Assembly: GCA_030154045.1 (NCBI GenBank)
Contig: JASKKU010000001.1
Coordinates: forward strand, 65,025-104,563
Direction: 5' to 3'
Source: Candidatus Woesearchaeota archaeon
GTDB taxonomy: Archaea; Nanobdellota; Nanobdellia; Woesearchaeales; JASKKU01
Length of the DNA stretch: 39,539 nucleotides
This document shows positions 3,835-39,365 of the stretch, one piece after another. The notes below the pieces were generated by a model. That model had not been told where the DNA came from, made no database searches, and saw only the letters and a program-made list of their open reading frames with translations. Both the position numbers and the translations under genes were made by a program. Numbering within the stretch: position 1 is the stretch's first letter; every line of letters starts with the position of its first letter.

Positions 3835-5865
3835 ATGGACATAGAGCAACAGATTGACAAGTTCAAAGAATTTCTTGATTTAAAACATAAGAAAGATATA
3901 ATAGACAACCTTAGAGAGGGAAAACACTTTGTCAATGTAGACTTTCAGGAACTTGTTAAATTTGACCCTGAATTGGCTGAGCATGTTCTTGAAAATCCTG
4001 CAGAAGCTTTTGAAACTGCTGAACTTGGCTGTAAATCTTTGGAATATTTTCCTGCTGAAGAGGTTCAACGATTTAAAGTTAGATTCTATAACCTTCCTGA
4101 GAAGAATAAATTATTAATCAGGGATATAAGGTCAGTTCATTTAAATAAACTCATAGTTGTAGAGGGAGTTGTCAGACAAAAATCGGATGTCAGGCCCAGA
4201 GTTCTTTCAGCTAAATTCGAATGTCCACAATGTGGTAATATTCTTACTGTTTTCCAGAAGGGAGACAGCTTTAAAGAACCAACAAAATGCAGTTGCGGTC
4301 GGAAAGGCAAGTTTAAGCTCTTAAATATGGATATGGTTGATTCGCAAAGAATTGTGCTTGAAGAAATACCTGAACAACTTGAAGGTGATGCTCAACCAAA
4401 ACGTATAAATGTTTTCTTGGAAGACGACTTAGTTAGTCCAATGAGTGAAAAAAAGACGAATCCAGGTTCTAAAATCCGCGTTTCTGGAATACTTAAAGAG
4501 ATCCCTATTTACACCAGAACTGGGAGCAAATCCGTAAGGTTTGATTTGATGATTGAAACTAATTTTGTTGAACCGCTTGCAGAAGATTATTCTGAAATAA
4601 AAATAAATGAAGAAGACGAGCTTAAAATCAAAGAATTAGCAAAGAGGGAAGACTTATTTGACATTTTAGTTAAAGCTGTTGCACCCTCAATTTATGGTTA
4701 TGAGAATTTAAAATTGGCATTACTTCTTCAACAAGTAGGTGGTGTTGAAAAAATAAGAAATGATTCTTCAAGGTCAAGAGGAGACATTCATGTCTTATTG
4801 ATTGGCGACCCAGGAGCAGGTAAATCTCAACTGCTTAAACGAATGAGCATAGTTGCACCTAAGGCGAAATTCGTCTCAGGAAAAAGTGCTTCAGGTGCGG
4901 GTTTGACTGCTACAGTTGTACGAGATGAATTTCTAAGAGGATGGGCTCTAGAAGCTGGTGCATTAGTTCTAGCGAATAATGGTTTGTGCGCTATCGACGA
5001 GTTAGATAAGATGGATAAAGAAGACAGGTCTGCAATGCACGAAGCTTTAGAACAGCAAACTATAAGCATTAGCAAAGCAAATGTGCAAGCCACATTAAGT
5101 GCCAAAACTACTGTGCTTGCTGCAGCAAATCCTAAGCTAGGCAGATTTGACCCTATGACTCCTATAGCTAAACAAATTGATTTGCCTCCTACTTTGATAA
5201 ACAGGTTCGATTTAATATTCATAGTCCGAGATATTCCTGCAAAAGACAAAGATGAAAGATTAGCCGAGCACATCTTAAGAATACATCAAAACCCAACAGA
5301 GACTAAAGCAGAGTTATCTACAGAATTCTTAAGAAAGTATATTGCTTATGCTAAGCGAAGGTTTAAACCAAAACTTACAAATGCAGCAATCAAAAAAATA
5401 AAAGAGTTCTATGTTGAATTAAGAAACTCAGGTTCAACTGACGAGGATGCTGTAAAACCCATACCCATCTCAGCAAGACAATTAGAGGCTTTAGTAAGAT
5501 TATCAGAAGCAAGCGCAAAGATAAGATTATCTGATAAAGTGACTGTTGAAGATGCAATGCGTGCTATTGAGATCTTAACTACCTGCTTACAAGAGGTTGG
5601 TGTAGATCCAGAAACAAAAAAGTTTGACATTGATCTAATAACAACAGGAATAAGTAGCAGCCAAAGAAACAAGATTGCTATTGTAAGACAGATCATTGAT
5701 GAACTGGAACAAAGTTTAGGTAAGGTCATACCTATTGAAGAAATTGTAGAGCGAGCCACCGAAAGAAATATTCCAAGTTCACAAGTTGAGGAAATTATTG
5801 AAAAACTCAAAAGAAGCGGAGATTTGTTTGAGCCGAGAAGAGGTCATGTCCAAAAAGTCATCTAA
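3835..5865 (+). CDS. mcm: MCM replicative helicase
   Basis: Homohexameric 3'-5' helicase that unwinds DNA at the replication fork. Domains in order: helical N-terminal A domain; OB-fold with a zinc ribbon (C130, C133, C152, C154); AAA+ core with Walker A GDPGAGKSQ (324-332), Walker B CAIDELDKM (385-393), sensor-1 Asn in AAANPKLGRFDP, and arginine finger R457 in LINRFDL; and a C-terminal winged helix (about 605-676). At 676 residues it is the normal archaeal length, with no intein. TATA-like TTTATTAATTAAAAG (about 3801-3815) is about 27 bp before the ATG, so the mRNA is probably leaderless. It lies 5 kb from the predicted origin and cdc6, in the same replication island. Confidence 0.98.
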   Translation: MDIEQQIDKFKEFLDLKHKKDIIDNLREGKHFVNVDFQELVKFDPELAEHVLENPAEAFETAELGCKSLEYFPAEEVQRFKVRFYNLPEKNKLLIRDIRSVHLNKLIVVEGVVRQKSDVRPRVLSAKFECPQCGNILTVFQKGDSFKEPTKCSCGRKGKFKLLNMDMVDSQRIVLEEIPEQLEGDAQPKRINVFLEDDLVSPMSEKKTNPGSKIRVSGILKEIPIYTRTGSKSVRFDLMIETNFVEPLAEDYSEIKINEEDELKIKELAKREDLFDILVKAVAPSIYGYENLKLALLLQQVGGVEKIRNDSSRSRGDIHVLLIGDPGAGKSQLLKRMSIVAPKAKFVSGKSASGAGLTATVVRDEFLRGWALEAGALVLANNGLCAIDELDKMDKEDRSAMHEALEQQTISISKANVQATLSAKTTVLAAANPKLGRFDPMTPIAKQIDLPPTLINRFDLIFIVRDIPAKDKDERLAEHILRIHQNPTETKAELSTEFLRKYIAYAKRRFKPKLTNAAIKKIKEFYVELRNSGSTDEDAVKPIPISARQLEALVRLSEASAKIRLSDKVTVEDAMRAIEILTTCLQEVGVDPETKKFDIDLITTGISSSQRNKIAIVRQIIDELEQSLGKVIPIEEIVERATERNIPSSQVEEIIEKLKRSGDLFEPRRGHVQKVI

Positions 5866-5946
5866 TCTTTATTACAATCAATTAAATGAAATAAAGTTTG
5901 TTTTTATTATCTGAAATTCAGTTTATGAAAATAAAAAGGTGCTAAA

Positions 5947-6732
5947 ATGAATCCTATAAAAGAATTAAGAAAAAAAAGATTATCTTCAGTACAAAGGGTT
6001 GTTGATTTTATTCTAAAATTTTTATTCGTGCTCTTGCTCTTTTTATACATAAGTAATATTAGCATCAATATAATTACTCAAAAGATTAATGATAATCAAG
6101 ATGTTATTATAGATTTAATAATACAACAAGAATTAAACGAAACGCTAACTCAGTATCCTCAAATGACCGAAGAACAAAAAACTCAAATCATGAATGTGTT
6201 AAAAGAAGAAGTCAAAAACAAGGCGAGCAGTGAATTAAATGGTTTAACTCAATCAATAAAAGACGCTTACAAATCAAAATTGGGAATTTTGGCAAACCTT
6301 TCAAACAGAACTATTTTGATACTTCTTGTAGTTATATTTATTTTAATTTTTATAAACAGCGGCTTATTATTAACAACACATTTTGTTGAAAAAATATTAT
6401 TAGAACTTGCTTTGCTTTTTGCCCTACCAAGCATAATATGGACTTATATTCTAAAATCTGGGGTTGTTGAAAAAATAATTTTATCACAATTGGCTGATAT
6501 AAAATCCACACAAAATAAAGCTATTATACAAATAATACAAAAGATACTTCAAAAAATCTCAGAGATATTTCATTTTGAACAGTATTTAACAATAGCTTTA
6601 ATCTTATTAGTATCCGGAATAGCTTTGTTAATAGGTATCAGATTTTTAGCAAAGCACAAATTACAATATCTTGAAGAACACAAAATGGAACAAGATATTA
6701 AACAAAGCAATGAAAGTGAGCAAAACAACTAA
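5947..6732 (+). CDS. Four-helix membrane protein, unknown
   Basis: Unrecognised 261-residue integral membrane protein. A basic N-terminus (KELRKKRLSSVQR) precedes helix 1 (about 21-43); an 80-residue Gln/Glu-rich extramembrane stretch follows; then helices at about 122-143, 148-168 and 212-234, and a charged cytoplasmic-type tail. The N-terminal basic residues suggest the N-terminus is inside, placing residues 44-121 outside. The ATG at 5947 follows GGTGCTAAA, a reasonable Shine-Dalgarno. Its stop is only 3 nt from the ATG of the RPA-like gene, so the two are almost certainly co-transcribed and probably translationally coupled. No catalytic motif is visible. Confidence 0.75.
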   Translation: MNPIKELRKKRLSSVQRVVDFILKFLFVLLLFLYISNISINIITQKINDNQDVIIDLIIQQELNETLTQYPQMTEEQKTQIMNVLKEEVKNKASSELNGLTQSIKDAYKSKLGILANLSNRTILILLVVIFILIFINSGLLLTTHFVEKILLELALLFALPSIIWTYILKSGVVEKIILSQLADIKSTQNKAIIQIIQKILQKISEIFHFEQYLTIALILLVSGIALLIGIRFLAKHKLQYLEEHKMEQDIKQSNESEQNN

Positions 6733-6735
6733 AAA

Positions 6736-7557
6736 ATGAACGCGCAAAAGAGATCACCCGCAAGGATTGTAGAGTTACAAACTATAGAAAAAGCAAATCT
6801 AATAACTAATGAAAACACAAACTATTTGTTAATCAACAACGAAAAAGTTGACAGAGTTAATGTTATAGCAATAGTTGTTGATATAAACAGGAACGAAATC
6901 ACAAACAATATTTTGCTAAGATTAGATGATGGAACTGCGATAACAACAGTCATGATATTTGACCCTGAGTTGTTTGATGAAAACATTAAGATAGGAGATT
7001 TTGTAAATGTCATAGGAAGAGTTAGAGAGTTTGAAAAATCAAGATACATTGCTGGTGAAATTATAAGGAAAACTACTAAATCTTGGTTTAATTATAGAAA
7101 AAAGCTCCTTGAGAAAATAAAACCAAACTTAAATCTTGAAAAACAAAATCAAAGCACAAATATATCAAGCATAAATCAAACATCTAAGGAAATCAATACA
7201 GATTTGAATAAAAAATCTGAAGCACAAACTCTTTCTCAAACACAAGAAGATAAAGTTGAAGAAGATTTGTTAATTGATGAGGTTGATTTAAATTCTGTTA
7301 ACAATAATTCTGAAAATAAAGAAAGTGGTGAAAAAAAGAATGAAGATAAAAAAATAGCTGACCAAAATAATACAAAACCCATAAACAAGGATAAATTAGT
7401 TTATGATCTGATTAAAAAACTTGATGATGGTGAAGGCGCAGACTTGGACCAAATCATTATTAAATCCAAACTTGAGGATTGTGAAGATGTAATCAAAAAA
7501 CTGCTCAGAGAAGGAGAAATTTATGAGATAAGACCAAACAAGTTCAAGGTATTATGA
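6736..7557 (+). CDS. RPA32-like single-stranded DNA-binding protein (OB-fold plus winged helix)
   Basis: Likely an archaeal RPA-type ssDNA-binding subunit. Residues about 38-112 form an OB-fold pattern (VDRVNVIAIVVDI, ILLRLDDGTAITTVMIF, KIGDFVNVIGRVREF, YIAGEIIRKT), the DNA-binding core. Residues 130-218 are a long low-complexity Asn/Glu/Lys linker. Residues about 222-273 look like a winged helix (LVYDLIKKLDDGEGADLDQII, VIKKLLREGEIYEIRPNKF). OB plus flexible linker plus winged helix is the layout of eukaryotic RPA32 and archaeal RPA32-like proteins, where the winged helix is a docking site for repair factors. No zinc finger of the RPA70/RPA41 type is seen. It lies directly after a membrane-protein gene and 1.3 kb from the origin. 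Confidence 0.75.
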   Translation: MNAQKRSPARIVELQTIEKANLITNENTNYLLINNEKVDRVNVIAIVVDINRNEITNNILLRLDDGTAITTVMIFDPELFDENIKIGDFVNVIGRVREFEKSRYIAGEIIRKTTKSWFNYRKKLLEKIKPNLNLEKQNQSTNISSINQTSKEINTDLNKKSEAQTLSQTQEDKVEEDLLIDEVDLNSVNNNSENKESGEKKNEDKKIADQNNTKPINKDKLVYDLIKKLDDGEGADLDQIIIKSKLEDCEDVIKKLLREGEIYEIRPNKFKVL

Positions 7558-7619
7558 TGTTATATTCGAAAAAAAATAATTAGAAGGATAATTAAAAAGA
7601 CTAACATGGTTTCTAGACA

Positions 7620-8474
7620 TTACAAGTTAAGAGCTGGTGTAAGATAAACTTCAATTAACGCTGCCAAAAACAAAATCAAGATGCTTATAATAACCAAATC
7701 ACTAACATCAAAAACTATGTTCTCGAATTTTTTTGTTGAGAAATGGTGTTTAACTATGGCAAAAGAAATAATACTGCCAGCAAGACCTGCAACAAAATAA
7801 GCAGCTATTTCAGGGATACCATGAATTGAAAACCTAAGAAAACTAAAAACAAACGCTTTCAGATAATCTACAAAAGTCAAGACTTGTGATGATGATAAAA
7901 ACTCATTTAATTTAATTCTAAAATAAGAATTTAAAGCAACACCTAAGACAGAACTATTCCAAATTAAAATAAACAAAGCTCCAACACCAAATAATAAAGA
8001 GAAAACTAAACATAGAATCATAACTTTAAAATTATTAGAGAAAATTGTTCCAAACCTCAAAAGATTCTGATAAAAACTTCCTGTTAACTTTGGATTTATG
8101 ACTGATAACACTTTCAATTGTGGTTCAAACACCTGTTGAAAAGAACTATGGGATAAAAATAGAGCTATTAAAAAGAAACCTAAGGTAACGCCTAAAAACA
8201 TAAAAAGAAAAGTATTTATTGCTTTTAAATGATGTTTTAAAATAAGTTCCTCAGAATCAAGCAGAACATCTTCATCTTCTTCTAACGAACTAATCCTATA
8301 AAAAATAGGTGTCAAAGCAATCAAGATCAAAGAAATAGCTACAATTGAAGGATTTTGTGGAAATGCAAAGATACCTATCAAAACTGAAAGGATTGCATAA
8401 ACCAAGCTAAAGAAAAATATCAAATAAAAATGCTTCTCAACTTTTTCAGCAGGCAAGTTGATTTCTAAGACCAT
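7620..8474 (-). CDS. SpoIIM-family (stage II sporulation protein M-like) membrane protein
   Basis: Polytopic membrane protein of the SpoIIM/DUF95 family, common in archaea and of unknown role. The diagnostic stretch is an S-V-L-G-V-A-L-N-S-Y-F segment followed by H-G-I-P-E-I-A-A-Y-F-V-A-G-L-A-G, near the third quarter of the protein. About six hydrophobic segments are visible. I start it at the ATG at 8474 (284 aa), not the upstream TTG at 8528: a TATA-like TTAAATATG (about 8500-8508) lies about 27 bp upstream of this ATG, and an N-terminus reading MVLE followed by an AEK-type charged segment is what I recall of archaeal homologues. It points away from the origin and converges with the RPA-like gene. 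Confidence 0.85.
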   Translation of the reverse strand: MVLEINLPAEKVEKHFYLIFFFSLVYAILSVLIGIFAFPQNPSIVAISLILIALTPIFYRISSLEEDEDVLLDSEELILKHHLKAINTFLFMFLGVTLGFFLIALFLSHSSFQQVFEPQLKVLSVINPKLTGSFYQNLLRFGTIFSNNFKVMILCLVFSLLFGVGALFILIWNSSVLGVALNSYFRIKLNEFLSSSQVLTFVDYLKAFVFSFLRFSIHGIPEIAAYFVAGLAGSIISFAIVKHHFSTKKFENIVFDVSDLVIISILILFLAALIEVYLTPALNL

Positions 8475-8573
8475 CAAGATATCAAACGCTAATTCATATT
8501 TAAAAAACTTTTTGAAAAAATAAGCCAAGTATTAAACTTACAGATGAAAAATCGAGAAAAAGTAAACACCACC

Positions 8574-8594
8574 ACACCTTGATTTCCTTTGAAA
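8574..8594 (-). promoter_or_regulatory. ORB-like element 2 (degenerate)
   Basis: Read on the - strand this is TTTCAAAGGAAATCAAGGTG followed by T. It matches the strong box at 8844 in about 16 of 21 positions, including the central AGGAAAT and part of the G-run. It is inverted relative to that box, as expected for the far side of an unwinding element. Weak alone; the arrangement raises confidence. Confidence 0.5.
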
Positions 8595-8595
8595 C

Positions 8596-8615
8596 AACCT
8601 TTGTTTCGAGTGCAA
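8596..8615 (-). promoter_or_regulatory. ORB-like element 3 (degenerate)
   Basis: Read on the - strand: TTGCACTCGAAACAAAGGTT, about 15 of 20 positions like the mini-ORB form TTCCACTGGAAACAAAGGGG. It is in tandem with element 2 at about 21-bp spacing, two helical turns, so Orc1 protomers would bind on one DNA face. Confidence 0.45.
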
Positions 8616-8632
8616 GGCTTTTGATCAAAGAG

Positions 8633-8823
8633 TCATATATATAGTTAATATATAATTGATATAAAGCATGTAAGAATATATATTTTTTAGAAAAGTATAT
8701 TTAATAATAAAAACAATATATTTATTTATTCTTTTCCATATTGAAAATAATTAATATTAAGTTATTATTTCATTTAATTTAACTTTCTTTATTTTACTAT
8801 TTTATTTTTCCTCTGATTCGCAA
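8633..8823. other. AT-rich duplex unwinding element (predicted)
   Basis: About 190 bp almost entirely A and T, including repeated TATATA and AATATATT blocks, between the inverted ORB boxes. It has no open frame and no hairpin of note. It is the most AT-rich continuous stretch I can see in the window. Confidence 0.55.
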
Positions 8824-8843
8824 TTAATTTTTAATTAAACGAC

Positions 8844-8864
8844 TTCCACAGGAAATGGAGGGGT
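8844..8864 (+). promoter_or_regulatory. Origin recognition box (ORB), near-consensus
   Basis: TTCCACAGGAAATGGAGGGG followed by T. It contains both halves of the archaeal ORB: the partial dyad TTCCAC-GGAAA and the GGAGGGG G-string contacted by Orc1/Cdc6. It lies 25 bp upstream of the cdc6 TATA box, so initiator binding could also affect cdc6 transcription. Confidence 0.85.
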
Positions 8865-8889
8865 CACAGGGTTATTTCAAATGGAAAAG

Positions 8890-8899
8890 TTTAAATTAT
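8890..8899 (+). promoter_or_regulatory. TATA box of cdc6
   Basis: TTTAAATTAT centred about 27 bp upstream of the cdc6 ATG at 8922, implying a leaderless transcript. The ORB at 8844-8864 lies just upstream, where BRE-proximal factors would sit, so autoregulation by Orc1 is plausible. Confidence 0.65.
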
Positions 8900-8921
8900 A
8901 AACAATTAATCTCCTTTCAGC

Positions 8922-10130
8922 ATGGACAAACCTTTGAAAAGTTTCTTTAAGAAATTCCTTGAAAGAGAGACTCTATTTGTAAATAAAGAAGTTCTTGAGG
9001 TTTCATTCACACCTAAAAACATTTTGCATAGAGATAAACAGATTGAGGAACTTGCTGAGATTCTAGCTCCTGCTTTAAAATTCAATAAACCTTCAAATAT
9101 CTTCATATATGGTAAAACAGGTACAGGTAAAACTGTCACTGTAAATAGAGTTGTTTATGATCTTGTTGAAGTTGCAAGAGAGGAGAATGTTCCTTTGAAT
9201 TATGTTTATGTTAATTGTAAGCTTGGTAGAGCAGATACGGAATATCGATTAATAGCTTATATTTGCAGAGAACTAGGCATTGATTTGCCATCAACAGGTT
9301 TACCTACTGATGAAGTTTACAACATTTTTTACAAAGCGGTTGACAAGAATAAACAATTATTAATCTTAATTTTGGATGAGATTGACCAATTAATATTTAA
9401 GATGGGTGATGATGTACTTTACACCTTAACTAGAATCAATTCTTACCTAACAAACTCAAAAATATCTTTGATAGGTATCTCTAATTTTGTTAAATTATTA
9501 GAACAGGTTGACCCTAGGGTTAAATCTTCTTTAGGAGAGGAAAGCGTAGTTTTTCCACCTTATGATGCTAATCAGATTAAAGATATCCTTGAAGACAGAG
9601 CTAAGAGAGCTTTTAGGTCAGATGCTCTAGAGCAAGGTGTTTTAGAGAAATGCGCAGCTATTGCTGCTAGAGACCACGGTGATGCTAGAAGGGCTATTGA
9701 TTTATTGAGAGTTGCGGGAGAGCTTGCTGACAGGGAAGGTTCAAAGAAGATTACTTTAAATCATTTAGATGCTGCTCAAGAGAAATTGGAAAAGGACAGA
9801 GTGCTTGACATTGTTGCTTCTCAACCAAAACAACATCAATGCGTTCTGTTTAGTTTGATTCTTTTAGATAACACTAAAAAGAAAGACGAAAGCATAACAA
9901 CAGGCGCAGTTTATGAAAAATATGTACAGTTATGCAAAAATTTGGATATTAGGCCTTTAACACAACGCAGAGTTTCAGACATTATCTCAGAATTTGACAG
10001 TTTAGGCTTAATTCAAAGTGTTGTCAAATCTAGGGGTCGGTTAGGTAGAACGAGGGATATTAGCATAGCTTTTGATATTTCAGTTAGACCGAGAGTTGTT
10101 TCCTTATTAAAACAATCATTGGGCTATTAA
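8922..10130 (+). CDS. cdc6: Orc1/Cdc6 replication initiator
   Basis: Origin-binding AAA+ initiator that recognises ORB elements and loads MCM. Visible: Walker A GKTGTGKT (64-71); Walker B ILDEIDQL with D152/E153; sensor-1 region GISNF near 185; sensor-2/lid region with AARDHGDARRAIDLLR near 245-260; and a C-terminal winged helix (about 305-402) containing TQRRVSDIISEFDSLGLI. At 402 residues it is the usual length. It is the first gene to the right of the predicted origin, transcribed away from it, and is followed by both PolD subunit genes on the same strand. It is the only orc1/cdc6 gene in the window; whether the genome has another is not visible here. Confidence 0.98.
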   Translation: MDKPLKSFFKKFLERETLFVNKEVLEVSFTPKNILHRDKQIEELAEILAPALKFNKPSNIFIYGKTGTGKTVTVNRVVYDLVEVAREENVPLNYVYVNCKLGRADTEYRLIAYICRELGIDLPSTGLPTDEVYNIFYKAVDKNKQLLILILDEIDQLIFKMGDDVLYTLTRINSYLTNSKISLIGISNFVKLLEQVDPRVKSSLGEESVVFPPYDANQIKDILEDRAKRAFRSDALEQGVLEKCAAIAARDHGDARRAIDLLRVAGELADREGSKKITLNHLDAAQEKLEKDRVLDIVASQPKQHQCVLFSLILLDNTKKKDESITTGAVYEKYVQLCKNLDIRPLTQRRVSDIISEFDSLGLIQSVVKSRGRLGRTRDISIAFDISVRPRVVSLLKQSLGY

Positions 10131-10230
10131 CAAAACAGCTTTTAAAAATATGTTTTTTAAAGAATATTTTTTAAAACAATTCTCGTTAAAAGTAAATCTT
10201 TTTTAAGTTTGGTTTTTTCCTAAGAATAAC

Positions 10231-12228
10231 ATGGTTGAAAATTCTTTAGATGACTCAAATATTGTTGATGAAACTATTAAAAATAGTGACGAGTTTATAG
10301 ACTTGGAACAAAAGGAAAACCTCGAATCAAACTTACAAAATTTAGATGAGACTTTTCTTGATTTGGAAGATTTAAAGTATGATACTGAATTGAATTCAAA
10401 AAAGCTCAAAGATATCATTTCTTCAGCAATAGAGAAAGGTATCTTCTTATCGCCTGAAGTCATTGATAAACTCACACAATCTGATTTTGACTATGAATCT
10501 TTTATAGAAAAATTGTCTCAGAACCAAAGCTTACTTTATGTTGATGAATCTCTTTTAGACAAAAATGATCTTGATTTTGATGATTTGAATTGGTTTGATT
10601 TTGATAAAGCAATCGTTGAGAAAGAGGTTAACAATAATCCTAAACTGTACGATTCCTTTATCGAGATAATCAAAAATAAATCTGAGTTCCCCGTTGATAA
10701 ATTTCTTAAAAAAGACGAACATAGACCTTTTTTCGATCAGGATATGGATATTTCTCTAGATATTGTTGATCATGTTCAAGCGAATGATGTTGCTTATTCA
10801 AATACTCCAGCTTTAGAAAATTCTCAAATTGGTGAAAAAAATAATGAAAGCAAGAAGCTAAAAGAAAAGAAGATCAAAGAACTCTCCCAAAACCAAAAAG
10901 GTGGCACTCAAAAAAATAACAAAACTGAAGAAAGTATTATTTCAAATAGTCTGTTTAGCCACGAGTTTGAAGGCTTACCTTCGAATGTTGAGGTTATTTC
11001 CTCTTATACAAATTTAGACCAAAAACTTGATGTTCAGAATTTTGTAAATTATTACAGACAAAGGTTAAAAACTTTTGTAAGGATGCTTTCAACAAGAACC
11101 GAATTGCAAGGTTTAAAATCCATTAATAAACTTCGTGGAGAAAGTGAAGTTTCCATTATTGGTTTGATTAATAACATTGTTGACACAAAGAATGGCATTT
11201 TCATAGATGTTGAGGATTTAACAGGCGTTATAAGGGTAATTGTTACTAAGGATAATGAGGAGTTGTATAATATCGCTTCTGAGTTGGTTTTAGATCAAGC
11301 GATAGGTGTTTCAGGATTTCTTAAAAACAACGTTATTTATGCAAAGACAATTTTGGAACCAGGCGTGCCAAACAGCATTCAGGTTAAGAAAGCTAAAGAA
11401 GACGTTAACCTTGCAATTATTAGCGATTTACATGTAGGTTCTAAACTCTTTTTAGAAAAAGAATTCATGAAATTTATTGATTGGATTAATGGCAACTATG
11501 GTAATGAAACCCATAGAGAACTTGGTTTAAAGACTAAGTATTTAATCATTGCAGGCGACCTTGTTGATGGTGTAGGTGTTTATCCAGGACAAAAAAGTGA
11601 GCTCAAGGTAACAAGCATTAAAGAACAATACGATTATGCAGCTTGTCTTTTATCCAAGATTAGAAAGGATGTAACGATAATTATTTCTCCAGGAAATCAC
11701 GATGCTGTTAGATTAGCAGAACCTCAGCCAGCATTAGATAAAGATTTTGCTGAATCGCTTTACAAAATGGAAAATGTTATCCTTGTAAGTAATCCTTCGT
11801 GGTTGAGAATTCACAATGTTGATGGTTTTTCAGGTTTTAAAGTTCTAATTTATCATGGTTACTCTTTTGATTATTACATCCGAAATATAGATTCTTTGAG
11901 GAATAGTGGCGGTTTTGACAGATTTGATTTGGTGATGAAATTCTTGCTTAATAAAAGACATCTATCACCCTCTCATGGTGCAACACTTTTTGTACCTGAT
12001 CCTGAAAAAGATCCTCTTGTTATTGAGGAAGTGCCTGATATATTTATCGTTGGTCATAATCACAGACCCAATGTCGGCAGTTTTAATAATATTGTTTTGG
12101 TTTCAGGTGGAACTTGGCAGCTAAAAACCCCTTTCCAAGAAAAAATAGGTCACGATCCTTTGCCTGGTAGAGTTCCTGTATTCAATTTAAAGACAAGAAA
12201 AATAAATCTGTTGAGATTTGTTGAATAA
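10231..12228 (+). CDS. polB: DNA polymerase D small subunit DP1
   Basis: Proofreading 3'-5' exonuclease subunit of the archaeal replicative polymerase PolD, a calcineurin/Mre11-like phosphoesterase. Residues 1-250 are an acidic, low-complexity N-terminal region with a helical part (KLKDIISSAIEKGIFLSPEVIDKL). An OB-fold follows at about 300-375. Phosphoesterase motifs: SDLHVGS (about 400), GDLVDG (about 442), PGNHD (about 487), YHGYSFD (about 541), GHNH (about 608). All metal-ligand positions appear intact, so the exonuclease should be active. At 665 residues it is in the usual range. A TATA-like TTTTTTAAG (about 10199-10207) is about 27 bp upstream, suggesting a leaderless mRNA. The large subunit gene begins 21 bp after the stop, so the two should be co-expressed. 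Confidence 0.97.
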   Translation: MVENSLDDSNIVDETIKNSDEFIDLEQKENLESNLQNLDETFLDLEDLKYDTELNSKKLKDIISSAIEKGIFLSPEVIDKLTQSDFDYESFIEKLSQNQSLLYVDESLLDKNDLDFDDLNWFDFDKAIVEKEVNNNPKLYDSFIEIIKNKSEFPVDKFLKKDEHRPFFDQDMDISLDIVDHVQANDVAYSNTPALENSQIGEKNNESKKLKEKKIKELSQNQKGGTQKNNKTEESIISNSLFSHEFEGLPSNVEVISSYTNLDQKLDVQNFVNYYRQRLKTFVRMLSTRTELQGLKSINKLRGESEVSIIGLINNIVDTKNGIFIDVEDLTGVIRVIVTKDNEELYNIASELVLDQAIGVSGFLKNNVIYAKTILEPGVPNSIQVKKAKEDVNLAIISDLHVGSKLFLEKEFMKFIDWINGNYGNETHRELGLKTKYLIIAGDLVDGVGVYPGQKSELKVTSIKEQYDYAACLLSKIRKDVTIIISPGNHDAVRLAEPQPALDKDFAESLYKMENVILVSNPSWLRIHNVDGFSGFKVLIYHGYSFDYYIRNIDSLRNSGGFDRFDLVMKFLLNKRHLSPSHGATLFVPDPEKDPLVIEEVPDIFIVGHNHRPNVGSFNNIVLVSGGTWQLKTPFQEKIGHDPLPGRVPVFNLKTRKINLLRFVE

Positions 12229-12249
12229 GTTTTTTGAAAGATTTTGAAA

Positions 12250-15200
12250 ATGGCTGAAGCTTCAGAACGAATGAAAAAGTATTTTGATAGTTTAGTTAGT
12301 GAGACTAATAAAGCTTATGAGATAGCCAATAAAGCGCGTAAGAAGGGTGTTGATGTAGTTAGAAATGTAGAAATAAGGTTAGCCAAAAACATGGCTGAAC
12401 GTGTTTTTGGTTTAATTTCTGTAGTTGCGCCTCATTTAGATGAAGAAAAAATAATCAATAGAATTCAAGAATTAGAGAGAAAGTACGAACCACTTGATTG
12501 GAGGGTTGCTTTAACAATAGCTTTAGAGGTAGCTCAACAAAAGTTTGGCAAGTTTGAAACTGAGCGAGAAGCCATGGAAGTGGGCATTAGAACAGGATTT
12601 ACTTATCAAACTGTCGGCATAGTCGCAGCCCCTCTTGAAGGTTTTACTGATTTAGAATTTAAGAAAAGAAAAGATGGTAAAGAATATTTCTCAGTTAAAT
12701 TCTCAGGCCCAATTAGGGGTGCAGGTGGTACTGGAGCAGCATTCTGTGTTTTGTTAAGTGATTTCATTAGAAAAAAGATGGGTTACGCTCCTTATGATCC
12801 AACTGATTTGGAAGTTAAAAGGTATGTTCAGGAAATTTACGATTATGCCGAAAGAGTAACTGTTCCACAATACTTGCCAACTCCTGAAGAAATTGAGTTT
12901 TTAGTCAGACATATTCCTGTTGAGGTTTCCGGAGAGCCAACCGAAAACATTGAAGTTAGCAACTATAAGGATTTAGACAGAATTGAAACGAATAGAATTA
13001 GGGGTGGTATGGTTTTGGTTATGGCTATGATTGCTTTAAAAGCTCCTAAGCTTTGGAAAAGAGTTGCGAAGTGGGGTAAGGAGTTTGATTTGGATTGGAT
13101 GTGGCTTGGTGATTTTTTAAAATTGCATGATGAGATTAAATCTAGAGCCAAAGCTGAAGAATCTAACAATGAATCAAAAGATAAAGATGAAGAGAAACTG
13201 AAACCAAACTATATCTTTATCTCTGAGCTAGTTGCAGGCCGACCAGTTTTTGCTTATCCTTTAAGAGATGGTGGTTTTAGAGTTAGGTATGGTAGAGCTA
13301 GAAATACAGGTTTTTCTTCAGCAGGTCTTCATCCAGCCACAATGGCTATTGTTTCTGATTTTATTGCAACAGGAACACAGTTAAAACCTGAACTTCCTGG
13401 TAAAGGTGCTGGTTCAAATGCTTGCGATTCTATAGAACCTCCAATAGTTTTACTTGATGATGGATCTGTAAAAAAAGTCAAAACAAGAGAAGAAGCCAAG
13501 AAACTTTATCCTCGAGTTAAAGAAATCTTGTTCTTAGGAGATATCTTGTATAATTATGGTGATTTCAGTGAAAACAATTCAAAGTTAGTTCCAGCAGGTT
13601 ATTGTCCTGAGTGGTGGTTTGCTGAATTAGAGAAAGCAATTAAGGATAACAATTTAGATTTTAATGATACTTTAAAGTCGATTTTTTCAGAACAAACTCT
13701 AAAAAATCTACAGTTTCCGCCTTTGTTTGTTCCAACACTTGAAGAAAGCATTAAGGCTTCAAAAGAACTAAACGTTCCTTTGCATCCTGAATACATCTTT
13801 TATTGGAATCAGATAAAACCTTCTGATATAATTCTCATTTTGAACGCTCTGCTTGATAAAAGTAAATTAACAAAAGAACCGAGTTTTAAGCTAGTCATTA
13901 AAGCAGATAAAAAAGATAATCGCGTTAAACGATGTTTAGAATTAATTGGTTTAGAACACGACTTTGTTAATAACGAACATATTGTAGTTAAAGGCGATTT
14001 GGCTAAAGCCTTCTTGCTGAATTTAGGTATTGATGAGAACGATTATTTCTCTTCAATTCAAGACCAGATAAACAAAATCTCATCTTTGTCAATTTCTGAA
14101 TTCAAAAAGGCTGTGGAAGTGGTAGACAAACTATCTGAGTTTGTAATACGAGATAAATGCGGAGTTTTTATTGGAGCAAGAATGGGTAGGCCTGAAAAAG
14201 CTAAAATGCGTGCTATGAGTGGTAGCCCTCATATGTTGTTCCCTGTAAGCGACCAGGGTGACAGGTTAAGGTCTTTTAATGTGGCAATTGAAAAAGGATT
14301 TGTTCAAGCAGACTTTGCGCATTTTAAGTGTCCAAAATGCAATAATGAAACCATTTTGCCTCTTTGTGAAAAATGTGGAACGCCTTGTGAACAGATGTAT
14401 TACTGTCCTTCTTGCAAAAAGTGGATGAAAGAACAGGTTTGTCCTGTTCATAATACTCCAAACAAGGAATATAGTAACAAGAAAGTCCCTCTTAAGGATT
14501 TAGTTAACCATGTGAGAAGTCAGTTTAATATCAGATACATACCTCCTCTTATCAAAGGAGTTAGAGGGACTGTTAATCGAGATCATGTTCCTGAACATTT
14601 TGTTAAAGGCATTCTTAGAGCTAAATACGGCATTTATGTGAATAAAGATGGAACTATAAGGTTTGATATGACTGAATTGCCTATAACACATTTTAAACCA
14701 AAAGAGATACATACGAGCGTTGAGAAACTTAGAGAATTAGGTTATGAGAAAGATATCTTTGGAAACCCGCTTGTTGATGAAGACCAAATTCTTGAGATAT
14801 TCCCTCAAGATATTATCCTGCCTTTAAGTTCAGGATTTTCAGAAGGCGCTGATGAGGTTTTTGTTAGGGTTGCAAAGTTTATTGATGACCTTCTTGAAAC
14901 TGTTTATGGCTTGCCAAGATACTACAATGTTGAGAAGAGAGAGGATTTAATTGGAAAGTTAGTTATTGGCTTAGCTCCTCATATCTCTGCAGGCATGGTC
15001 GGCAGAATTATAGGTTTCTCAGAAATACAGGCATTGCTTGCTTCACCTTTATTTCACGCTGCTTTAAGAAGAGATTGTGACGGCGATGAAGGTTGCATTC
15101 TGTTACAAATGGATGCTTTCCTCAACTTTTCTAAAAGATTCCTGCCTGACAGAAGAGGGTCTAGAACTATGGATGCACCTTTGGTATTAACAACAGTGTT

Positions 15201-15834
15201 GAATCCTTCAGAAGTTGATGATATGGTTTTGGGTTTGGATGTAGCTAGCAGATATCCTCTTGAATTTTATGAAGCAACTTTGCAATATAAAATGCCTTAT
15301 GAAGTTCATGTTGAACAGCTTAAAGACAGAATAGGTACTGAACAGCAGTACGAGAATTATGGGTTTACCCATCCTGTTAGCAATATAAATTACACAAACA
15401 TAGCTTCTTCATATAAAACTTTGGAAACCATGATGGATAAGTTGAATAAAGAAATGGAAATTGCTGGCAAAATTAGGGCTGTTGATGCTTCAGATGTAGC
15501 AAGCTTAATTATTGAAAAACACTTTATGAAAGATTTGAAAGGTAACTTAAGAAAATTTTCAATGCAAGTTTTTAGATGCGTTAATTGTAACGAAAAGTAT
15601 AGAAGAGTTCCTCTGTCTGGAAAATGTCCGAAATGCGGAGGAAAGATTATCTTTACTATTTCTGAAGGTTCGGTTACCAAGTATTTACAACCTTCTTTAG
15701 AATTGGCTGAGAAATATGATGTTGACGCTTACATAAGAGACTCCTTAAACATTGTGAAAACAAGAATTGACTCGCTTTTTGGAAAAGAAAAAGAGAAACA
15801 GCAAGGTTTATCTGCTTTTATGAATAAATCTTAG
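12250..15834 (+). CDS. polC: DNA polymerase D large subunit DP2
   Basis: Polymerising subunit of PolD, with an RNA-polymerase-like two-barrel active site. I start it at the ATG at 12250 rather than an in-frame TTG two codons earlier (1194 aa). Visible: N-terminal family signature GPIRGAGGTGAA (near 155-166); a zinc-binding block with several CxxC pairs (about 693-735); the catalytic loop D942-C-D944-G-D946; a C-terminal zinc ribbon (CVNC...CPKC, about 1109-1130); and at the extreme C-terminus Q1184-Q-G-L-S-A-F-M, a PCNA-interacting PIP box. No intein interrupts the catalytic loop, where some archaea carry one. Its stop overlaps the stop of the convergent DUF424 gene. Confidence 0.97.
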   Translation: MAEASERMKKYFDSLVSETNKAYEIANKARKKGVDVVRNVEIRLAKNMAERVFGLISVVAPHLDEEKIINRIQELERKYEPLDWRVALTIALEVAQQKFGKFETEREAMEVGIRTGFTYQTVGIVAAPLEGFTDLEFKKRKDGKEYFSVKFSGPIRGAGGTGAAFCVLLSDFIRKKMGYAPYDPTDLEVKRYVQEIYDYAERVTVPQYLPTPEEIEFLVRHIPVEVSGEPTENIEVSNYKDLDRIETNRIRGGMVLVMAMIALKAPKLWKRVAKWGKEFDLDWMWLGDFLKLHDEIKSRAKAEESNNESKDKDEEKLKPNYIFISELVAGRPVFAYPLRDGGFRVRYGRARNTGFSSAGLHPATMAIVSDFIATGTQLKPELPGKGAGSNACDSIEPPIVLLDDGSVKKVKTREEAKKLYPRVKEILFLGDILYNYGDFSENNSKLVPAGYCPEWWFAELEKAIKDNNLDFNDTLKSIFSEQTLKNLQFPPLFVPTLEESIKASKELNVPLHPEYIFYWNQIKPSDIILILNALLDKSKLTKEPSFKLVIKADKKDNRVKRCLELIGLEHDFVNNEHIVVKGDLAKAFLLNLGIDENDYFSSIQDQINKISSLSISEFKKAVEVVDKLSEFVIRDKCGVFIGARMGRPEKAKMRAMSGSPHMLFPVSDQGDRLRSFNVAIEKGFVQADFAHFKCPKCNNETILPLCEKCGTPCEQMYYCPSCKKWMKEQVCPVHNTPNKEYSNKKVPLKDLVNHVRSQFNIRYIPPLIKGVRGTVNRDHVPEHFVKGILRAKYGIYVNKDGTIRFDMTELPITHFKPKEIHTSVEKLRELGYEKDIFGNPLVDEDQILEIFPQDIILPLSSGFSEGADEVFVRVAKFIDDLLETVYGLPRYYNVEKREDLIGKLVIGLAPHISAGMVGRIIGFSEIQALLASPLFHAALRRDCDGDEGCILLQMDAFLNFSKRFLPDRRGSRTMDAPLVLTTVLNPSEVDDMVLGLDVASRYPLEFYEATLQYKMPYEVHVEQLKDRIGTEQQYENYGFTHPVSNINYTNIASSYKTLETMMDKLNKEMEIAGKIRAVDASDVASLIIEKHFMKDLKGNLRKFSMQVFRCVNCNEKYRRVPLSGKCPKCGGKIIFTISEGSVTKYLQPSLELAEKYDVDAYIRDSLNIVKTRIDSLFGKEKEKQQGLSAFMNKS

Positions 15835-22515: not shown

Positions 22516-22625
22516 GGGGACATGGTGTAACCAGGCAGCACAGCTGGCTCCAGTTTTTGGAGCGTTGAGCTTTATGCTATGAAAGAAGAAACCAGCTGAT
22601 CAGGGTTCAAATCCCTGTGTCCCCA
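22516..22625 (+). tRNA. tRNA-Trp (anticodon CCA) with a 37-nt intron
   Basis: Acceptor GGGGACA pairs with TGTCCCC, discriminator A at 22625; T-arm CAGGG-TTCAAAT-CCCTG; anticodon stem GCTGG/CCAGC. The anticodon loop would be CTCCAGA after removing 22554-22590, the canonical position between nucleotides 37 and 38. By hand the precursor folds into a relaxed bulge-helix-bulge: loop CTCC pairs with intron GAAG (one C-A mismatch), flanked by 3-nt bulges, and intron TTTT pairs with GAAA. Anticodon CCA is at 22550-22552. No CCA is encoded. The splicing endonuclease is not in the window. Confidence 0.93.
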
Positions 22626-33950: not shown

Positions 33951-34397
33951 TTATACCCTCTGATTTTGGGCTAGCATTATTATTGAAGAATCCCCATCTT
34001 TCAAGGCAACAACCTTTCCTGTTTTAATTAAGTTTTTGATATACCTGTAAAAAGTCGCTTTAGAACACAGTTTTTCTTTATCTACAACTATCGATTTTAA
34101 TTGAGTGGTAGAAATAGCTCCTAAAGCCAAGATTGCCAGTATTCTATCATATGCGGAAATGCTGCTACTTTTTACTCTTTTATTTTGTTTATATTCCTGG
34201 TTCTCTTCACTTCTTAACTGGTTTTTTATTTCTTTTAATTCCTTGAGAATTTCAGACATGACTTTGGTAAGTTCCTTGTTCTGGGTTTCAAGCTCTTCTA
34301 ACTTTTGTTTCTGGTTGAGAATATCTTCCTTTACTTTTATAAAACTCTTCTTTACAGTTTCTCTAAATCTCTCGAACTCTAACTCAGGAATCGGCAT
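33951..34397 (-). CDS. Coiled-coil plus HTH DNA-binding protein (candidate TGAGACT-array regulator)
   Basis: A 148-residue protein I do not recognise by name. Residues about 5-68 form a long helical segment with strong coiled-coil character (KVKEDILNQKQKLEELETQN and KVMSEILKELKEIKNQL), implying a dimer or higher oligomer. Residues 82-148 look like a winged-helix/HTH module: DRILAILALGAISTTQLKSI, then KEKLCSKATFYRYIKNLIKTG as recognition helix, then VVALKDGDSSIIML as wing. The gene starts 40 bp from a dense TGAGACT array with roughly helical-turn spacing (34437-34621), the best local candidate for its binding site. Binding is inferred from adjacency only. Confidence 0.7.
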   Translation of the reverse strand: MPIPELEFERFRETVKKSFIKVKEDILNQKQKLEELETQNKELTKVMSEILKELKEIKNQLRSEENQEYKQNKRVKSSSISAYDRILAILALGAISTTQLKSIVVDKEKLCSKATFYRYIKNLIKTGKVVALKDGDSSIIMLAQNQRV

Positions 34398-34410
34398 TAA
34401 ACAAAGGGTT

Positions 34411-34427
34411 CTTTTTATAATTTAAAT
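34411..34427 (-). promoter_or_regulatory. TATA box of the coiled-coil/HTH gene
   Basis: On the - strand ATTTAAATTATAAAAAG, centred about 22-25 bp upstream of the ATG at 34397. A second - strand candidate (GTATATAAG, 34544-34552) lies beyond most of the repeat array. Confidence 0.55.
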
Positions 34428-34436
34428 AGTTTTTCA

Positions 34437-34621
34437 TGAGTCTCGTGCGCAGTTTAATTTAAATAGAGACTCCTCGAGACTTGTCTCTTTTGAGACTGCT
34501 TTGAGACTGTCCTGAGACTGGGTTGAGACTCTCCCTAACAATTCTTATATACGACACCCCTTTATTTCCACTGCAGAAATTGATACTTTTTTGAGACTCA
34601 AAGTCTCATTTTTTGAGACTC
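34437..34621. repeat. TGAGACT heptamer array (candidate operator or iteron cluster)
   Basis: Ten copies of GAGACT, mostly extended to TGAGACT, lie within about 185 bp. Plus-strand copies start at 34466, 34476, 34492, 34503, 34514, 34525, 34593 and 34615; minus-strand copies are at 34438-34444 and 34602-34607. Four in a row (34492-34530) have exactly 11-bp periodicity, about one helical turn, putting them on one DNA face. The spacers between these four are unrelated (CTT, TCC, GGT), so the heptamer, not the whole unit, is conserved. Copies at 34593 and 34602 form TGAGACTcaaAGTCTCA. The array is directly upstream of the coiled-coil/HTH gene and downstream of the phosphoesterase gene. Confidence 0.85.
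34592..34614 (+). repeat. Perfect inverted repeat followed by a T-run within the array
   Basis: TGAGACTcaaAGTCTCA (7-bp arms, 3-nt loop) followed by TTTTTT. As DNA it is a two-site palindrome of the heptamer; as RNA on the + strand it would be a short hairpin plus U-tract, terminator-like. Which role matters is unknown. Confidence 0.6.
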
Positions 34622-34674
34622 GTCTATTTTTTTAAACAGAAACCAGACTACTCAAACGTTAATTTTATAAACTG

Positions 34675-34731
34675 ATGTTGGGAAAAGAAATCATTCCGCA
34701 GTTACAACTTGGAAGCAAGTTAGGGTTTTAA
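34675..34731 (+). CDS. Possible 18-residue small ORF
   Basis: ATG at 34675 encodes MLGKEIIPQLQLGSKLGF, then TAA, overlapping the phosphoesterase stop by 4 bp on the other strand. The last codons include a 6-bp hairpin (AACTTG-GAAG-CAAGTT). No clear Shine-Dalgarno; a TTTTTTTAAAC box lies about 40 bp upstream. It may be chance. Confidence 0.2.
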   Translation: MLGKEIIPQLQLGSKLGF

Positions 34732-35324
34732 AAATTAAGAATCATTCCTTTAGGCCCGGGATTGCAAAAAATTCTATTGTCATCCCGGCAAAGCTTGCCT
34801 TCATTCTCGTGAAAATGACCTGATAACGCTAATATCTTTTTAGTTGAGTGCGTCTTTAGAAACTTTGCAAAAGATTGATTTCCAAAATGAACATTATCTA
34901 ATTCATCAAGACATGAATCTTTTGGAGGCGCATGCGTAAGCAATACTATTTTTTCGAATTTTGAGATTTCTGTTTTGTTTTTTCTAACAAATCTTTCAAA
35001 TTCTGGCTCTCTTTCAGAGAAGCCTCCACCACCAAAACCTATGAATAAAGTATCTTCAAACCTAAACAGTTTCTTATGTAGGAAAACTAAATTGCTATTA
35101 ACGCTACTTATCTGACTAAACAGCTCAGGGTCATCATGGTTTCCATGAACCATAAGGACTAAAGTGGGTATCTGTTTTAGCTTTTTAACAATGTCCGGAT
35201 TTATTTCTCCGAAGATGGTTAGATCACCTAAGAACACTACAATATCCGCTTTTTTTGACAGCCTATAAACTCTGTCAACATAATTCTTCTGATTATGTAT
35301 GTCTGTAAATGCTAATATCTTCAT
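34728..35324 (-). CDS. Calcineurin-like metallophosphoesterase
   Basis: A 198-residue single-domain phosphoesterase of the calcineurin-like superfamily (YfcE/MJ0936-like size). All five blocks are present: FTDIHNQ (6-12), FLGDLT (32-37), VHGNHDD (59-65), THAPPKDS (near 130) and SGHFHEN (near 168), so the two-metal site is complete. Members act as phosphodiesterases or nucleotidases; the substrate here is unknown. There is no signal peptide. It is transcribed toward the TGAGACT array and is probably a single-gene unit. Confidence 0.88.
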   Translation of the reverse strand: MKILAFTDIHNQKNYVDRVYRLSKKADIVVFLGDLTIFGEINPDIVKKLKQIPTLVLMVHGNHDDPELFSQISSVNSNLVFLHKKLFRFEDTLFIGFGGGGFSEREPEFERFVRKNKTEISKFEKIVLLTHAPPKDSCLDELDNVHFGNQSFAKFLKTHSTKKILALSGHFHENEGKLCRDDNRIFCNPGPKGMILNF

Positions 35325-38353: not shown

Positions 38354-39148
38354 TTAATTGCTGAGTTTCTTAGAAATATTTTGTAGGTCTTTAGGACTTA
38401 TTTTAATTACTCCTTTCTGCCAGTCTTGGATTATTCTTTTAGCAGTTCTATTTGTGTCAACAACACCGCCAGAAGTAAGATAATTTAGCTTGGCACCTAC
38501 CTCTTCAAGAATTGTTTCAGCATCGCTATCATAGTCTATTCCGTAGAAAATACTCAAAGGCTTTTTGAGATATTCGATTAAGCTTAATGCAACCCCTTCA
38601 ACATCTTTTAACTTATTAGGGTCTTTTGAGCCAAGCAATGCAAGTCTAACCTCATCATCTTTTTTGAGGTTTACGACTCCAGGAGTATCTATCAGATAGA
38701 CTTTTTTCTTCATTTTAAGTAATTGCTTGCCTTTAGTAAATCCAGAAACTGGAGAGGTTAAAACTTTGCCTCCTCTTGATAACGAGTTCAAGAGAGAACT
38801 TTTGCCAACATTAGGTTGACCGAAAACACCTATAACAACCTTATCTTTGCCTTTTTTTAGAAGTTCTTCAGCTTTTGAATTGATATACTTCCTTAAATTT
38901 CTCATGTTATAGCCGTTCTTTGCCGAAACAATAAACACAGGTTTCAAACCCTTAATTTGATCTTGAATTGCACTTTTAGGCATAATATCTGATTTGTTGA
39001 TGACAAAAACCAATTCTTTCCCAAGCTCTAACACTCTTTTCTCTAAATTTCGGTTCCTGCTTAACTCAACTAACCTGGCATCTAATACTTCTAAGAGAAT
39101 ATCCGCTTCTCTTATAATGTCTAGAACAATCGACCTGTATTTACTCAT
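38354..39148 (-). CDS. Circularly permuted GTPase, YlqF/RbgA family
   Basis: Ribosome-assembly-type GTPase with permuted motif order: G4 NKSD (51-54), G5 SAK (75-77), G1 GQPNVGKSS (110-118), G2 Thr near 138, G3 DTPG (154-157). This order defines the YlqF/RbgA/MTG1 group, which acts in large-subunit maturation. The C-terminal helical region (ILEEVGAKLNYLTSGGVVDT, then AKRIIQDWQKG) also fits. At 264 residues it is complete. Its start overlaps the end of the histone gene by 8 bp, so the two are translationally coupled. With NMD3 it is the second ribosome-assembly factor in this window. Confidence 0.92.
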   Translation of the reverse strand: MSKYRSIVLDIIREADILLEVLDARLVELSRNRNLEKRVLELGKELVFVINKSDIMPKSAIQDQIKGLKPVFIVSAKNGYNMRNLRKYINSKAEELLKKGKDKVVIGVFGQPNVGKSSLLNSLSRGGKVLTSPVSGFTKGKQLLKMKKKVYLIDTPGVVNLKKDDEVRLALLGSKDPNKLKDVEGVALSLIEYLKKPLSIFYGIDYDSDAETILEEVGAKLNYLTSGGVVDTNRTAKRIIQDWQKGVIKISPKDLQNISKKLSN

Positions 39149-39365
39149 TTTCTATTAACTTGATTGCTAGTTCTATATCTTTAACTTGGATGGTTTTGCC
39201 ACCCTCAACTTCTTTTAACTCAAGCACTTCTTTAATTATCTCTTCAATTAATTGATTGCTTGCATCAGATAATGCTTTCGCAGCATCTTTAGAAATCCGA
39301 AACCCTTTCTCATTAACGAGCTTTTTAATAGGTAATACAGGAACAGCTTGCTTGTTCTTTGGCAT
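39141..39365 (-). CDS. Archaeal histone (paralogue 2)
   Basis: A 74-residue histone-fold protein closer to classic HMf-type histones than the first paralogue: VPVLPIKKLVNEKGFRISKD has the proline-containing arm and the R-I-S minor-groove arginine, and GGKTIQVKDIELAIKL gives the L2 loop and helix 3. It would form homodimers or heterodimers with paralogue 1. It lies 13 bp after the aIF1A gene and overlaps the permuted GTPase gene, so all three are one operon. Confidence 0.93.
   Translation of the reverse strand: MPKNKQAVPVLPIKKLVNEKGFRISKDAAKALSDASNQLIEEIIKEVLELKEVEGGKTIQVKDIELAIKLIENE

Follow-up and report, generated by a model that had tools for sequence, protein, structure and literature searches.

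A phased heptamer array enclosing an origin recognition box beside a coiled-coil winged-helix gene: a putative replication-control site in Woesearchaeota

Between a phosphoesterase gene and the gene of a 148-aa protein, the genome of a Candidatus Woesearchaeota archaeon carries a dense array of heptamers which encloses an archaeal origin recognition box (ORB), a motif that the earlier note on this DNA had not mentioned. We examined the locus in the window, i.e. the whole analysed stretch of 39,539 nucleotides, and in related genomes (features are listed in Table 1). Judging from sequence comparison, array and ORB together point to a previously undescribed replication-control site. The explanation towards which we lean, and which we hold to be reasonably probable, is a self-targeting nucleoprotein control site, where the protein would sit on the heptamers, autoregulate its own gene and engage Orc1/Cdc6 at the ORB. 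Homologues of the protein are found in 155 of the 353 genomes of the order, which makes the locus widely conserved; it joins a named cis motif to an unannotated protein family, and its link to Orc1/Cdc6 can be tested.

Table 1. Features of the array locus and of the cdc6 region in the window.
Feature	Position	Strand	Basis or remarks
MCM gene	3835-5865		
Classical oriC candidate, same genome	8529-8921	.	ORB 8844-8864(+), inverted ORB-like copy 8574-8594(-), AT-rich ~8697-8796
orc1/cdc6 initiator gene, presumed source of the binder for both ORB sites	8922-10130	+	Pfam Cdc6_lid, Cdc6_C, AAA
Both PolD subunits	10231-15834		
Gene of the 148-aa coiled-coil winged-HTH protein (short form), presumed heptamer binder	33951-34397	-	sequence, AlphaFold2
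TATA-like promoter element TTTAAATTATAAA of the 148-aa gene	34414-34427	-	17-30 nt before the start codon; matching position in relatives
Promoter-proximal heptamer block	34439-34530	.	GAGACT 34439(-), 34466, 34476, 34492, 34503, 34514, 34525 (+); degenerate copy 34483(-)
ORB CTGCAGTGGAAATAAAGGGGTGTC, presumed Orc1/Cdc6 site	34553-34576	-	consensus in PMC4153887; gap between the two repeat blocks
Promoter-distal heptamer block	34592-34620	.	inverted pair 34592-34608 and copy 34614-34620
Calcineurin-like phosphoesterase gene, other border of the intergenic region	34728-35324	-	

The array exists as described and greatly exceeds chance expectation. It sits in the intergenic region 34398-34727, and all ten GAGACT hexamers which the earlier note had counted in about 185 bp were recovered in 34439-34620, eight on the plus and two (34439, 34602) on the minus strand. 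Seven of the ten extend to full TGAGACT heptamers, and an eleventh, degenerate copy (GAGAC) stands on the minus strand at 34483. The exact 11-bp period claimed for four copies was seen at 34491/34502/34513/34524, the last four of the promoter-proximal block, and the claimed perfect inverted pair, TGAGACT-CAA-AGTCTCA, at 34592-34608. In 5000 runs of a Markov simulation of the 330-bp intergenic region GAGACT was expected 0.36 times and reached a maximum of 5, and ten copies of any hexamer occurred in none of them. The genome (805 kb) holds 80 copies of TGAGACT, seven of them in the array, and a scan of its whole length found no second dense cluster; the phased pair TGAGACTNNNNTGAGACT has exact matches at the array only, three in number. 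Multiple direct repeats with a period of about 11 bp near the gene of their presumed binder are what is expected of an iteron-type site. The array region is 65% AT with one ORB, and as single-stranded DNA it folds mildly better than shuffled sequences (z -2.1). A CRISPR-like or RNA element was ruled out, as the phased spacers are 4 bp long and the Rfam matches in the window are tRNAs only. The distal block also has two hairpins followed by T-runs, as in a terminator, but these hairpins consist of heptamers, and this reading was rejected because it leaves the phased block and its conservation unexplained.

The neighbouring 148-aa protein had been described as a long coiled coil with a C-terminal HTH, and this is borne out by the AlphaFold2 model (11-sequence alignment, mean pLDDT 84.5), in which a single helix at residues 5-76 is followed at 82-142 by a predicted winged HTH of three helices and two strands. 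Neither Pfam, NCBIfam nor PHROGs gave a family match above the curated cut-off, a Rep family included, and the position is chromosomal; sequence-based searches for relatives of solved structure returned nothing convincing. Foldseek matched the model to generic winged-HTH folds only (ArsR/SmtB, MarR, PadR, AspA), none with E below 0.001, the AspA-centromere complex 5K5Q being a weak match at rank 11 (E 0.01). Homologues come in two forms told apart by profile score, a short one of mostly 110-165 aa, to which the protein of the window belongs, and a long one of mostly 190-250 aa; some genomes have both. The gene tree separates the two forms, except that the genome of the window and its sister G001 fall on the long-form side on a long branch. 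Among the carriers are Candidatus Woesearchaeota MAGs, Nanoarchaeota MAGs and the closed genome Archaeon GW2011_AR15 (AR15). Beyond the order only weak and mostly partial matches were found; in other orders of the class (G353-G559) these cover N-terminal residues 5-60 in proteins of 200-280 aa, which suggests a wider family sharing the coiled-coil part and lacking the winged HTH of the 148-aa protein.

Genes surrounding the locus (DUF192, phosphoesterase, MoxR/VWA) vary between relatives, and this touches on the reading of the array as a centromere-like partition site to which the 148-aa protein would attach as centromere-binding protein. Repeated sites with 11-bp phasing upstream of the gene that encodes their presumed binder, the winged-HTH fold and the presence of 5K5Q among the weak Foldseek matches would suit such a role, but the neighbourhood contains no motor gene, strong ParA-type ATPases are not present in all carriers (AR15 has a weaker match, G098 none above the cut-off) and array and oriC are between 26 and 402 kb apart, depending on the genome. 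Since no motor gene accompanies the locus, ParA-type partition is disfavoured; partition with a ParA partner was ruled out, there being no conserved partner, and a partition role appears quite improbable.

The tie between array and gene put forward in the earlier note holds up among relatives. We counted heptamer cores (GTCTCA, GTCCCA or TTCCCA) in the 420 bp upstream of each homologue gene and found at least three upstream of 27 of the 34 short-form and 24 of the 29 long-form genes, as against 3-4% of shuffles; seven of the 34 short-form loci have fewer than three. Most copies share one orientation in loci of both forms, and their same-strand spacing is by far most often 11 bp (58 short-form and 55 long-form cases), 22 and 33 bp forming additional peaks. 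Upstream of the start codon, the near edge of the array is met at a median distance of 43 (short form) and 44 (long form) bp, immediately ahead of the TATA box. In each of the two closed genomes read, no cluster is as dense as the one at the gene, with 6 copies vs 3 elsewhere in AR15 and 15 vs 5 in G011. Comparison across genomes brings out, at the level of sequence, the array with its phasing and position and its occurrence once per genome, and likewise the ORB and the co-variation described below. In some other homologue loci the array is just downstream of the gene; the long-form loci of G053 and G234 (L010, L248) have 15-copy arrays there, so autoregulation alone may not account for the array. 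In several long-form arrays (upstream regions L011, L013, L258 and L270, and at 437.3 kb in G011) the gap that houses the ORB in short-form arrays contains a TCGTCGA-like element; as a central element of long-form arrays it was dropped, since no more than about a third of the loci have it.

The proposal of the earlier note that the neighbouring protein binds the array is supported by this company of arrays and homologues, its own refuting case, homologues lacking nearby clusters, not having been borne out, and further by the heptamer variant, which changes with the predicted recognition helix. Helices with CSKA pair with GTCTCA (median GTCTCA fraction 1.0, 27 loci) and those with CSKS with GTCCCA/TTCCCA (median GTCTCA fraction 0.11, 24 loci), the p-value of this co-variation being 4e-10 in a test that ignores relatedness. 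G000 and G001, the genome of the window and its sister, are grouped with the long forms in the tree and retain the combination of CSKA and GTCTCA. Nothing else speaks as strongly as this co-variation for a reading of the heptamers by the protein itself, and we consider it very likely that they are bound by the protein encoded next to them.

The published archaeal ORB consensus is CTTCCAGTGGAAACGAAAGGGGT (PMC4153887). The box in the array fits TCCA-nn-GGAAA with a G-run, the one mismatch, GCA for CCA in the TCCA half, being shared with a listed ORB of M. intestinalis, and its core CAGTGGAAATAAAGGGGT equals an ORB listed for M. luminyensis (PMC4153887). The motif recurs ahead of cdc6 within this lineage. 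Calling ORBs at up to three mismatches and within 500 bp of homologue genes, we found one near 30 of the 35 short-form genes (25 upstream within 500 bp, five just downstream) and near none of the 31 long-form genes; as a label on the gene tree, the presence of an ORB requires 5 changes vs 22 for shuffled labels. Unbiased word counts gave the heptamer together with ACACCCC, the end of the ORB, in short-form loci and heptamers alone in long-form loci. The ORB pattern is present in 107 of 338 genomes, where the reversed control almost never appears, and its genome-wide matches lie mainly beside short-form genes or at cdc6. Heptamer cores within ±250 bp of an ORB averaged 0.09 at the 23 loci without a short-form homologue and 5.4 at the seven with one; the co-occurrence that the earlier note had proposed as a test is seen from both sides, ORB loci without a homologue having essentially no heptamers and most homologue genes being accompanied by an array. 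In 14 of the 32 ORBs of short-form loci a heptamer core is fused to the 3' end of the ORB (GGGGTGTCTCA), while the ORB of the window is three positions off the short-form consensus and has no fused heptamer. The ORB is very likely bound by Orc1/Cdc6.

The mechanism that we favour would run as follows. The 148-aa protein would multimerise through its coiled coil, and its C-terminal winged HTH would bind heptamers which, phased at 11/22/33 bp, lie on the same side of the helix and immediately precede the promoter of its gene, a location from which it would control its own expression. In short-form loci Orc1/Cdc6 would bind the heptamer-flanked ORB. The two proteins would then form a complex linking the 148-aa protein to the start of replication at a distance from the classical oriC, with the site serving as an auxiliary (second) origin or else titrating or timing Orc1/Cdc6. 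Binding, multimerisation and the replication role we infer from comparison. Of the roles first suggested for the array, that of an autoregulatory operator is favoured by the fixed distance between array and promoter, whereas that of a nucleoid-organising site fared less well, since one dense array per genome disfavours a general nucleoid protein, with isolated weak sites still possible. The other readings overlap, and the likelihoods that we attach to them do not sum to one. According to one of them the array is a plain operator controlling its own gene only, with the ORB letting Orc1/Cdc6 time its transcription. The fixed place just upstream of the promoter, the single array per genome and the retention of array and gene without ORB in the long form are in accordance with it, but up to 15 copies over 250 bp are more than ordinary operators have and in some genomes the array is downstream of the gene, and we regard it as unlikely that this is the whole function.

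The role of the ORB in the array is not obvious because a classical oriC exists elsewhere in the genome. The region immediately before cdc6, with PolD and MCM nearby, has a textbook oriC layout, in which a stretch of 91% AT lies between the ORB and its inverted copy, and similar ORB pairs are present at cdc6 in most relatives checked. The replication cluster 3835-15834 comprises MCM, a SpoIIM-like gene, Cdc6 and both PolD subunits. The two ORB sites of the window are 25.7 kb apart; an oriC would be expected to adjoin a cdc6-family initiator gene, and cdc6 is at least 24 kb from the array (402 kb in AR15). No inverted ORB pair flanking an AT-rich unwinding region was found at the array locus, while the cdc6 region has both. 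A classical oriC at the array, first considered on account of the ORB and the raw skew of AR15, was downgraded because of the ORB-AT-ORB region beside cdc6/PolD/MCM and the disagreement of the codon-corrected skews.

The strand skews, which give a mixed picture, also bear on a stronger form of the favoured mechanism, in which array and ORB are an active second origin and the 148-aa protein is a WhiP-like, origin-specific co-initiator. In AR15 a distance of 2.7 kb separates the only close ORB match (870,424) from the point where the raw cumulative GC skew is lowest (873,171); the match adjoins the gene-orientation minimum (870,091), and cdc6 is 402 kb away. However, the raw skew of AR15 is largely a gene-orientation effect, the codon-corrected GC minimum being at 672 kb and an extreme of the corrected T-A skew at 470 kb, adjoining cdc6, and the array has neither an AT-rich unwinding region nor an inverted ORB pair. 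That the corrected skew places no origin at the array was counted against the joint-site reading too. In G011, which carries no short form (1.20 of its 1.30 Mb was read) and has an ORB at cdc6, the corrected GC-skew minimum (782 kb) is near cdc6 (765 kb) and away from the array, by which long-form arrays were ruled out as origins. An origin at a short-form locus is possible, not established, and we consider the co-initiator version rather unlikely. A further reading has the ORB capture Orc1/Cdc6 (titration) under the gate of the 148-aa protein, with no origin activity at the site. ORBs that occur singly or in tandem at a distance from cdc6, with no AT-rich region, would suit it, a heptamer fused to the ORB end would allow competition or cooperation of the two proteins, and a precedent exists in the ORB cluster of Haloarcula oriC2 (PMC4010727), but one or two ORBs per locus are few for a sink, and such a function is rather doubtful.

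Direct repeats about one helical turn apart, near the gene of their binder, are known as iteron or parC-type arrays from bacterial plasmids. The 148-aa locus resembles these in its repeats of about a helical turn near the gene of the presumed binder, but it is chromosomal, includes an ORB, and no Rep domain or motor was found in it. To our knowledge no heptamer array accompanies WhiP or oriC3 of Sulfolobus, and replication control in DPANN archaea is almost unstudied. WhiP, too, is a DNA-binding protein of the winged-helix type whose gene adjoins a putative replication site (PMC4010727), but it is Cdt1-related and oriC3 has no ORBs. UBP and the ucm element of Sulfolobus origins are similar in that a small DNA-binding protein has its motif inside the Orc1 site region (PMC12141716), but UBP occupies sites by the hundred and has its motif within oriC, while the 148-aa protein has one array per genome, in cis. 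In AspA-ParB-ParA of pNOB8 and in SegAB, too, a protein recognises sites upstream of its own gene, AspA being a winged HTH (PMC5120986), but the 148-aa cassette has no ParA/ParB or SegA partner, and AspA nucleates on one 23-bp palindrome, not on a heptamer array. Initiator sites proposed to control rather than start initiation are datA-like titration sites and the Haloarcula oriC2 ORB cluster (PMC4010727); those are clusters of initiator sites, whereas here one or two ORBs lie inside the array of another protein. From the cdc6-linked oriC the array ORB differs in being away from cdc6, without inverted pair or AT-rich region and inside another protein's repeats. The parts are therefore known, namely iteron-like arrays, ORBs, UBP (PMC12141716), WhiP and Haloarcula Cdc6 titration (PMC4010727) and AspA (PMC5120986). 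In the open-access literature searched, where absence is not proof, we found no description of the protein family, of the heptamer code or of an array around an ORB away from cdc6, and the earlier impression that no archaeal system with this motif had been described stands within that scope. More tentatively, it is possible that, apart from the cdc6 oriC, the chromosomes of Woesearchaeota contain a replication locus of a second kind, where a lineage-specific coiled-coil winged-helix protein on phased heptamers around an ORB would fire or license replication with Orc1/Cdc6, the long-form paralogue marking a further, ORB-less self-targeting site. If the replication role is true, these archaea would possess a second site associated with the initiator, and the protein family underlying it would be specific to them.

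Two minor observations concern other parts of the window. A 110-base Rfam tRNA match at 22516-22625, missed by ARAGORN, is probably an intron-containing tRNA, and an archaeal histone-fold gene (39141-39365, minus strand) is situated at the window edge.
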